Made by a program: the position numbers and the translations under genes. 64,000 nt of DNA from Candidatus Avoscillospira avicola (GTDB lineage Bacteria > Bacillota > Clostridia > Oscillospirales > Oscillospiraceae): the NCBI GenBank assembly GCA_018712245.1, contig DVHE01000014.1, forward strand, positions 1 through 64,000, in the 5' to 3' direction. Shown piece by piece: positions 11,002-13,917 of the stretch (position 1 is its first letter; each line of letters starts with the position of its first letter). The notes under the pieces were generated by a model. The model was not told where the DNA came from and made no database searches. It was given only the letters and a program-made list of their open reading frames with translations.

Positions 11002-11934
11002 TTATTTCAGCAGCAGATACGCGAAATATCCGCCGTAGGACAAGAGCATCAGCGCGCCGTGCCACCAGACCAGCTTGCCCCGAAGGCCGCACAGCCACAG
11101 CAGGACGCCGGCGCCGATGGCTACCAGTGTGTCGATGCGGAAGGCCGCGGCAAAGGGTACCGGGATGATGATGGCGGATAGGCCCACCACAAAGAGAATG
11201 TTGAAGATGTTGCTGCCGACAATGTTGCCGATGGCGATGTCGGCATTGCCCTTGCGGGCGGCCATCACCGAGGTGAACAGCTCCGGCAGCGAGGTGCCCA
11301 GCGCGACGATGGTCAAACCGATGAACCGCTCGCTGAGGCCGAGGATGCGCGCGATGGCGGTGGCGGCGTCGATGGCCAGGTTGCTGCCCAGAATGATCAG
11401 GCCCAGGCCCAGCACAGTCCAGAAGAGACACTTGGGCAGGGAAAGGTCCCGAACGAACTCATAGCCGTTGGGGTCCGGGTGCTTCTTGGCGTTATAGAGC
11501 AGGTAGCCGATGTAGCCGATGAACAGTACGGCCATAATCAGGCCATCTCCCAGGGATACGGTGCCGTCCCAGCCCAGGGCCAGCAGTACGCCGGAGATCA
11601 GCAGCATAAAGGGGATGTCCAACTTGATCGTCGCCTTGGCCACGGCCACCGGGACGATCAGGGAAGAAAGTCCCAGGATGATCAGAATGTTGAGAATGTT
11701 GCTGCCGACGATGTTGCCGATGGTGATGTCGGCGCTGCCCTTCAGGGCGGCGGAGATGCTGACGGCGGCCTCCGGCGCGCTGGTGCCCATGGCCACGATG
11801 GTCAGTCCGATCACCAGCTGCGGGATGCGGAACTTCCGGGCGATGCCGGCGGCGCCGTCCACAAACCAGTCGGCGCCCTTGACCAGCAGTACGAAGCCCA
11901 GGGCCAAGAGCAATAATTCCAGAATCATTTGCAT
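11002..11934 (-). CDS. Cation/Ca2+ exchanger of the CaCA family (YrbG type)
   Basis: The 310-residue membrane protein has two inverted Na_Ca_ex repeats, each with the ion-binding signature: GTSAPEAAVSISAALKGSAD with GNIVGSNILN in the first half and GTSLPELFTSVMAARKGNAD with GNIVGSNIFN in the second. About ten helices are expected. The family exchanges Ca2+ (or other divalent ions) for Na+ or H+. The ATG at 11934 has GAGGG seven bases upstream. The long leader looks like a manganese riboswitch, which suggests that Mn2+ export is the true or an additional role here; that substrate assignment is inference. Confidence 0.9.
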   Translation of the reverse strand: MQMILELLLLALGFVLLVKGADWFVDGAAGIARKFRIPQLVIGLTIVAMGTSAPEAAVSISAALKGSADITIGNIVGSNILNILIILGLSSLIVPVAVAKATIKLDIPFMLLISGVLLALGWDGTVSLGDGLIMAVLFIGYIGYLLYNAKKHPDPNGYEFVRDLSLPKCLFWTVLGLGLIILGSNLAIDAATAIARILGLSERFIGLTIVALGTSLPELFTSVMAARKGNADIAIGNIVGSNIFNILFVVGLSAIIIPVPFAAAFRIDTLVAIGAGVLLWLCGLRGKLVWWHGALMLLSYGGYFAYLLLK

Positions 11935-11964: not shown

Positions 11965-12005
11965 GAAAAGCGAGACTTTGCTGCGAATAACAGCAAAGTC
12001 TCGCT
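11965..12005 (-). terminator. Riboswitch-linked terminator in the antiporter leader
   Basis: A perfect 15-base stem, 11969-11983 with 11991-12005, 7-base loop, then TTTTC on the minus strand (complement of 11965-11968). It stands between the promoter and the coding start, so it must be read through for expression. Confidence 0.85.
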
Positions 12006-12091
12006 ACTTCGTTATAGGCCGGATCTATATAAGAACGTCATGACGGCGCTATACCCACGGGGCAGACCCATGGAAGCTACTCCCTAAGCGA
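12006..12091 (-). ncRNA. Probable yybP-ykoY (Mn2+) riboswitch aptamer
   Basis: The minus-strand leader contains UUAGGGAGUAGCUUCC (about 12073-12088), close to the hallmark GGGGAGUAG loop of yybP-ykoY, and further on CCGUCAUGACGUUC, matching in place the CGUCAAC-type second loop of known examples. CUUCG (12089-12093) and CGAAG (12007-12011) can close the element, the first arm partly upstream of the predicted start site. A strong promoter lies just upstream and an intrinsic terminator just downstream, the usual design for Mn2+-induced read-through. Controlled genes of this class are Mn2+ exporters or related cation transporters, which fits the antiporter. I could not run a covariance model. 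Confidence 0.7.
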
Positions 12092-12096
12092 AGAAT

Positions 12097-12125
12097 ATTA
12101 TACACAGCCTGTCCCGGCCCGTCAA
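12097..12125 (-). promoter_or_regulatory. Strong sigma-A promoter of the riboswitch/antiporter transcript
   Basis: Minus-strand TTGACG (12120-12125), 17-base spacer, TATAAT (12097-12102); predicted start near 12090. Confidence 0.85.
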
Positions 12126-12160: not shown

Positions 12161-12189
12161 GGAAAATCCCCGCCCGGCAGCGGGCGGGG
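12161..12189 (-). terminator. Terminator of glnS
   Basis: Nine-base GC stem CCCCGCCCG/CGGGCGGGG (12168-12176/12181-12189), GCAG loop, T-rich tract on the minus strand (complement of 12163-12167). The plus strand also has a T-run (12195-12199). Confidence 0.8.
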
Positions 12190-12200
12190 CAGTGTTTTTC

Positions 12201-13880
<1,680 letters not shown>

Positions 13881-13917
13881 GGACACATCCTCCTAGGTAC
13901 AACATTTCTGAAATGCA

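Follow-up and report, generated by a model that had tools for sequence, protein, structure and literature searches.

An exchanger gene of the CaCA family in Candidatus Avoscillospira avicola is preceded by an RNA element that is a genuine, so far unannotated member of the known yybP-ykoY riboswitch family. We consider it probable that this element is a transcription-ON riboswitch without a P4 arm, most likely activated by Mn2+, for a likely Mn2+ exporter. The element is located in the window, i.e., the whole stretch of 64,000 nucleotides that was analyzed (contig DVHE01000014.1, assembly GCA_018712245.1). Its anatomy, the covariation of its helices, its relation to the family, the overlap between aptamer and terminator, and its conserved placement before CaCA genes are direct observations. 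The features of the locus are as follows:

12125-11969, minus strand: riboswitch unit, from the promoter through the terminator
12097-12125, minus strand: sigma-70 type promoter, TTGACG (12125-12120)-N17-TATAAT (12102-12097), with 11 of 12 consensus matches
11988-12090, minus strand: yybP-ykoY-type aptamer in the three-way junction form, matched by model R1 (59.7 bits, E 1.3e-15)
12078-12083, minus strand: L1 5′ strand GGAGUA, with its 3′ partner GAGA at 11999-12002
12055-12073, minus strand: P2 hairpin CCAUGGG-UCUG-CCCCGUGG of the window fold, which covaries in relatives
12044-12053, minus strand: P3.1 5′ strand UAUAGCGCCG, with the 3′ strand CGGCCUAUA at 12013-12021
12037-12043, minus strand: L3, a U-type 7-base bulge UCAUGAC predicted to bind metal, the third base of which is an A equivalent to Llac A41 and Xory A48
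12022-12036, minus strand: P3.2 hairpin GUUCUUAUAUAGAUC, with one U-U mismatch in the window
11993-11998, minus strand: 3′ strand CUUUGC of the switch helix P1.1, pairing with 12084-12089 with two U-U mismatches
11969-12005, minus strand: terminator hairpin AGCGAGACUUUGCUG..CAGCAAAGUCUCGCU, 16 bp in the fold, −27 kcal/mol
11002-11934, minus strand: CaCA exchanger gene, 310 aa, a single-gene unit with TIGR00367 and PF01699 matches
12168-12189, minus strand: terminator-like hairpin after the preceding gene, which sets that gene apart from the riboswitch unit

The TTGACG-N17-TATAAT promoter described in an earlier sequence-only reading of this DNA is present on the minus strand, and one such pattern was found versus 0.3 expected from shuffles. 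The predicted transcript start at ~12090 coincides with the 5′ end of the aptamer, and the leader folds more stably than 200 of 200 shuffled versions (z −4.4). A GAGGG ribosome site is located between the terminator hairpin and the CaCA gene, which is convergent with the next gene on the plus strand. From a reading of the preceding ORF (12201-13886), we take it to encode a glutamine-tRNA ligase-like protein.

The aptamer has the two-leg yybP-ykoY layout, with the order P1.1, L1, P1.2, P2, P3.1, L3, and P3.2. The GGGAGTAGC loop (12084-12076) and the CCGTCATGACG segment (3′ end at 12036), to which the sequence-only reading had drawn attention, are both found on the minus strand. CCGUCAUGACG is also present; however, it does not form a hairpin but comprises the end of P3.1, the 7-base L3 bulge, and the first base of P3.2. 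As in other yybP-ykoY RNAs, L1 is an internal loop, formed by GGGGAGUA (12084-12077) and GAGA (12002-11999), and L3 is a 7-base bulge with an adenosine at position 3. Among 42 CaCA leaders, GGGAGUAG and AGACUU do not vary. A switch helix formed by CUUCG and CGAAG near both ends was considered and rejected; the relatives support AAAG/CUUU. A P4 arm, and with it a four-way junction, is absent from the window and from most clostridial relatives, and a P4-like hairpin was seen in loci L085 and L032, the second of which belongs to the same genus. L032 (1-193), a CaCA leader of Ca. Avoscillospira stercorigallinarum, has retained the terminator and a UCAACAC resembling L3, while its L1 is degenerate at the contig edge. 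Because a three-way junction is reportedly the form described by Martin in 2019 for the S. pneumoniae mgtA riboswitch, we did not treat P4 as obligatory.

Compared with the members of RF00080, including the crystallized L. lactis yoaB and X. oryzae RNAs, the window element shares L1 GGGGAGUA with GAGA, P3.1 with a 7-base L3 and its invariant adenosine, the C=G receptor pair, and a P1.1 switch helix that is shared with the terminator. It differs in that it has no P4, in that its L3 is UCAUGAC rather than the A-type ACAUACU of the Rfam consensus, and in that RF00080 misses it. Specifically, the check with the Rfam yybP-ykoY covariance model that the sequence-only reading had suggested gave no significant match, as RF00080 ("Manganese") matched nothing in the window at gathering, nothing in a 301-base stretch of it even with the E limit raised to 10, and nothing genome-wide at an E limit of 0.001. 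A strong relative was likewise unmatched under both the gathering and the E 10 settings, and of 197 genomes of the order, eight were matched, none of them above the cut-off. This miss is not decisive because RF00080 at gathering is an insensitive criterion: when the K-12 loci of the two established E. coli Mn2+ riboswitches, alx (L320) and mntP (L321), were searched with Rfam 15 at gathering, cspA was the only family reported, and neither riboswitch was recovered.

A second Rfam family, RF02617 SSRC10 ("Streptococcus sRNA 10"), matched the window with 19.6 bits (E 0.16), far under its gathering cut-off of 56 bits, and both this match and the miRNA matches in the window were set aside as weak or as originating from the terminator palindrome. 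The RF02617 consensus (GGGAGua, cCGUCaaUACGg, and GCgaGaC) has the layout of a U-type yybP-ykoY RNA, including the L3 UCaaUAC and a terminator, and it gives weak matches to several of the riboswitches described here. We think it probable that RF02617 represents a yybP-ykoY riboswitch that has been catalogued as an sRNA.

The relation to the family was established using CaCA homologues collected from 150 family genomes and the GTDB species set. Many relatives share a leader pattern consisting of AAAGGGAGUAGC, a hairpin, CGUCANNAC, a hairpin, CCGG, AGCGAGACUUU, and a terminator, and based on covariance-model and pattern matches, the element lies upstream of at least 59 of the 110 CaCA homologues. 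Model R1 was built on 15 CaCA leaders that align in register, with the window excluded (alignment A2). In A2, both partners vary in 24 of 32 pairs, and the covariation score is 0.497 versus 0.258 ± 0.017 in shuffled and at most 0.159 in slid alignments. The R1 match to the window is its only match in 64 kb. Among 101 further genome sequences retrieved with R1, the covariation score is 0.739 versus 0.216 shuffled and at most 0.126 slid; because this alignment is fitted to the model, these figures lean towards the model, and the margin is large. The helices P1.1, P2, P3.1, and P3.2 have covariation support, as do those of yybP-ykoY RNAs. The C=G pair in P3.1 that serves as the receptor of the L1-L3 A-minor contact is present in 99 of the 101 relatives, and the third L3 base is an A in 214 of 214 seven-base loops, the U-type ones included. 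Thus, the idea that the leader consists only of a promoter and an attenuator hairpin, with a chance resemblance to yybP-ykoY, deserves almost no weight: it could draw on the lack of an Rfam match and on the perfect terminator stem, the strongest local feature, but it is already refuted by the strong covariation, by the placement before at least 59 of 110 CaCA homologues, and by the R1 match (E 1.3e-15), obtained with a model from other genomes.

R1 also detects accepted members of the family. It finds all eight clostridial loci that lie below the RF00080 cut-off (E 2.6e-12 to 3.7e-6) and, in 20 kb of E. coli sequence, the mntP leader (E 0.005) and the L3 arm only of alx (E 0.024), the E. coli matches being weak. 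Together with the anatomy, this cross-detection of weak RF00080 loci, of mntP, and of part of alx bears out the yybP-ykoY assignment made in the sequence-only reading. With R1 matches in 104 of 245 genomes of the class, the family is far commoner in Clostridia than Rfam shows, and an annotation gap is thereby corrected. Two leaders carry tandem yybP-ykoY pairs (L161 151-247 plus 295-387 and L228 1491-1603 plus 1901-2013). The exact DNA pattern GGGAGTAGC..CCGTCATGACG occurs in the window alone among 150 family genomes because L3 positions 4-5 vary. The single distant blastn match to plasmids is due to chance.

A terminator stem before the gene had been noted previously; it is present, and its length in the fold is 16 rather than 15 bp. 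Its tail is only UUUU, the last stem base included, i.e., a weak U tract, which is why this minus-strand terminator is missing from a simple scan. The aptamer 3′ strand (P1.2, L1 GAGA, and P1.1) coincides exactly with the 5′ arm of the terminator, so that the terminator shares the P1.1 3′ strand as in other yybP-ykoY RNAs, with the weak U tract as the deviation. Aptamer and terminator overlap in this manner in 158 of 209 relatives versus 1 of 209 with the downstream sequence shuffled. For the same stretch, the folding energy is −48 kcal/mol in the terminator state versus −24 kcal/mol in the aptamer state, with metal and tertiary contacts uncounted. Because the terminator wins energetically, docking of the ligand must hold P1.1 during the passage of the polymerase, and we therefore infer an ON switch; for the L. 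lactis yybP-ykoY RNA, an ON switch has been shown (PMC11087558).

In the mechanism that we propose, the AGCGAGACUUUGCUG strand would be engaged in the strong terminator hairpin without the ligand, and transcription of the CaCA gene would stop. Docking of L1 (GGAGUA/GAGA) on L3 (UCAUGAC) via the third-position L3 adenosine would be brought about by a divalent ion, which is most likely Mn2+, the adjacent site being filled by Mg2+. In the docked state, P1.1/P1.2 would keep the AGCGAGACUUUGCUG strand, the terminator would not form, and the exchanger would be made and would then most likely export Mn2+. The dynamic range of this switch may be modest because of the UUUU tail and the two U-U mismatches in P1.1.

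The Ca2+/cation exchanger gene that the sequence-only reading placed behind the leader was confirmed by matches to TIGR00367 (calcium-sodium antiporter; 253 bits versus a cut-off of 179.65) and PF01699 (234 bits). The protein has GTSxPE in both alpha repeats, and the nearest solved structure is NCX_Mj. Based on the site residues of NCX_Mj, both glutamates and the equivalent of N81 are present, while the equivalent of D240 is N. This replacement says nothing about the substrate because it is equally common in riboswitch-linked (56 of 59) and other (48 of 51) CaCA homologues; similarly, a search for a substrate signature among the 110 homologues found none, the riboswitch-linked and the other homologues being alike. 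In B. pertussis, the CaCA protein BP3410 exports Mn; its gene is controlled by a yybP-ykoY switch with Mn-dependent read-through and is not induced by Ca (PMC8546581). The BP3410 switch has an Rfam E-value of 8.5e-15 (PMC8546581) and is therefore nearer to the Rfam consensus than the window element. By analogy with BP3410, we infer that the CaCA protein encoded in the window exports Mn2+. In this way, a large group of "calcium/sodium antiporters" gains a likely metal-export role.

Mn2+ is likely also the ligand of the window element, as suggested by its alx-type L3 and the invariant Mn-binding adenosine and by analogy with the Mn response of alx. Crystal structures show an L1 adenosine docked on the C=G pair in P3.1; the Mn2+ ligands are L1 and L3 phosphates together with N7 of the invariant L3 adenosine, the L3 loops being UCA41AUUC in Llac and ACA48UACU in Xory (PMC6754395). 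More broadly, L3 comes in two types: the A-type ACANNNY, which is also found in X. oryzae, E. coli mntP, and the Rfam consensus, and the U-type UCANNAC, to which UCAUGAC of the window belongs. The L. lactis loop UCAAUUC, which is Mn-bound in crystals, was classed as U-type. E. coli alx is likewise of the U-type (UCAUUAC) and shares the G-C pair closing L3 with the window element; it differs in having a P4 arm, a TerC-family gene, and L1 GGGGAGUAAC. The alx reporter rises with Mn, and alx and mntP respond jointly to Mn and pH (PMC9603457). Of 101 relatives, 74 have G-C and 25 have A-U as the pair closing L3 (in P3.1; A3 columns 85 and 153); by eye, G-C accompanies the U-type and A-U the A-type, possibly as a linked change.

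L3 types were surveyed in ~220 elements from samples of the class and the phylum, with the downstream genes taken from mechanical first-ORF calls and the families checked on representatives. Elements before genes for the Mn exporters MntP (14 A-type, 0 U-type) and GDT1 (12 A-type, 0 U-type) are jointly of the A-type in 26 of 26 cases. By contrast, elements before CaCA genes are mostly of the U-type (42 versus 6 A-type; Fisher p 1.4e-14 versus MntP plus GDT1, a value that is descriptive only because the genomes are related). The U-type also prevails before genes for OAD-beta (24 versus 1) and NhaD/CitMHS-like proteins (7 versus 0), giving U-type in 73 of 80 for CaCA, OAD-beta, and NhaD-like together; TerC/YjbE genes follow seven U-type and three A-type elements, and P-type ATPase genes 32 U-type and 30 A-type elements. 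In 12 genomes that have an MntP/GDT1 element plus another one, the element of the Mn exporter is always of the A-type and its partner of the U-type (12 of 12); one of these genomes has an additional A-type element before an ATPase gene. In genome G885, for instance, the CaCA gene follows a U-type element and the MntP gene an A-type one. R1 was trained on U-type CaCA leaders, and A-type elements are consequently under-sampled; this alone cannot create the exclusive pairing of MntP/GDT1 with the A-type.

This sorting of L3 by gene counts against the Mn2+ reading because it would be surprising for two types with a shared function; further points against it are the lack of an Rfam match, the U-U mismatches in P1.1, the UUUU tail, and the missing P4. 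Two natural yybP-ykoY subclasses, i.e., the A-type, reserved for the dedicated Mn2+ exporters MntP and GDT1, and the U-type, to which the window element belongs, before genes for CaCA exchangers, lone OAD-beta, NhaD-like antiporters, and membrane stress, with the U-type sensing a different signal such as Ca2+, Ca2+/Mn2+, or Mn2+/pH, are conceivable, but we regard this division as improbable. If it were true, bacteria would have a calcium-type riboswitch. More specifically, the U-type variant might sense Ca2+, or Ca2+ together with Mn2+, and control Ca2+ export by the CaCA protein, which we consider doubtful. Such a role would fit the sorting of L3 types with genes, also within the 12 genomes, and the published expectations that yybP variants for other divalent ions exist (PMC7266159, by Breaker and colleagues) and that Ca2+ is a likely undiscovered riboswitch ligand (PMC10043782). 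It would also fit the S. pneumoniae mgtA leader, a yybP-ykoY member that is termed "Mn/Ca2+-sensing" (PMC11434433); like the window element it controls an exporter, in its case a P-type ATPase. However, the soft-ligand adenosine is retained in every U-type element, the U-type alx responds to Mn, and BP3410 is unaffected by Ca. Moreover, TerC/YjbE genes are also preceded by U-type elements, and both L3 types occur within one clade of P-type ATPases (32 U-type versus 30 A-type), the tree implying a minimum of 7-10 switches. A clean ligand split of the P-type ATPase tree by L3 was rejected, as the types are clustered with many switches. In the set of papers searched, no calcium riboswitch was described. 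Altogether, we put Mn2+ first because of the invariant adenosine, alx, the L. lactis loop, the ATPases with either type, and the Bordetella CaCA exporter. The L3 dichotomy makes the published suspicion of yybP RNAs for other ions (PMC7266159, PMC10043782) directly testable.

It is considerably less probable than a Ca2+-sensing variant that the conserved leader, with its yybP-ykoY fold, responds to some other input, e.g., an alkaline pH, Na+, or another transition metal. U-type elements before genes for the lone OAD-beta subunit of a Na+ pump, NhaD-like antiporters, and Kup, and before htpX, lemA, pspA, hflK, and a flotillin-like gene speak for such an input, as does the response of the U-type alx to alkaline pH. 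However, alx and mntP, which represent both L3 types, respond to Mn and pH together (PMC9603457), and all bases of the metal site are conserved.

Several gene contexts of these elements were noted in addition. Of the 27 elements before a lone gene for OAD-beta, the beta subunit of a Na+-translocating decarboxylase, 24 are of the U-type, and at the OAD-beta loci (including L129, L131, L133, L142, L143, L149, and L150), a partner gene is almost never directly downstream. Elements at L152, L170, L226, L241/L242, L245/L296, L277, and L327, mostly of the U-type with L226 being of the A-type, precede genes for membrane-stress proteins (HflK, HtpX, FtsH-like, Zn_peptidase_2, LemA, PspA, and flotillin-like). 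In four genomes (L195, L200, L205, and L221), a U-type element precedes a gene for a secreted protein that is pectate-lyase-like by look and has no Pfam match. Finally, the genome of Ca. Avoscillospira avicola contains a second element outside the window (G000:C30:5065-5159, minus strand; L121 1501-1595), which is also missed by RF00080; it has the A-type L3 ACAAUCCC and its own terminator and precedes a gene for a P-type Ca2+/cation ATPase.
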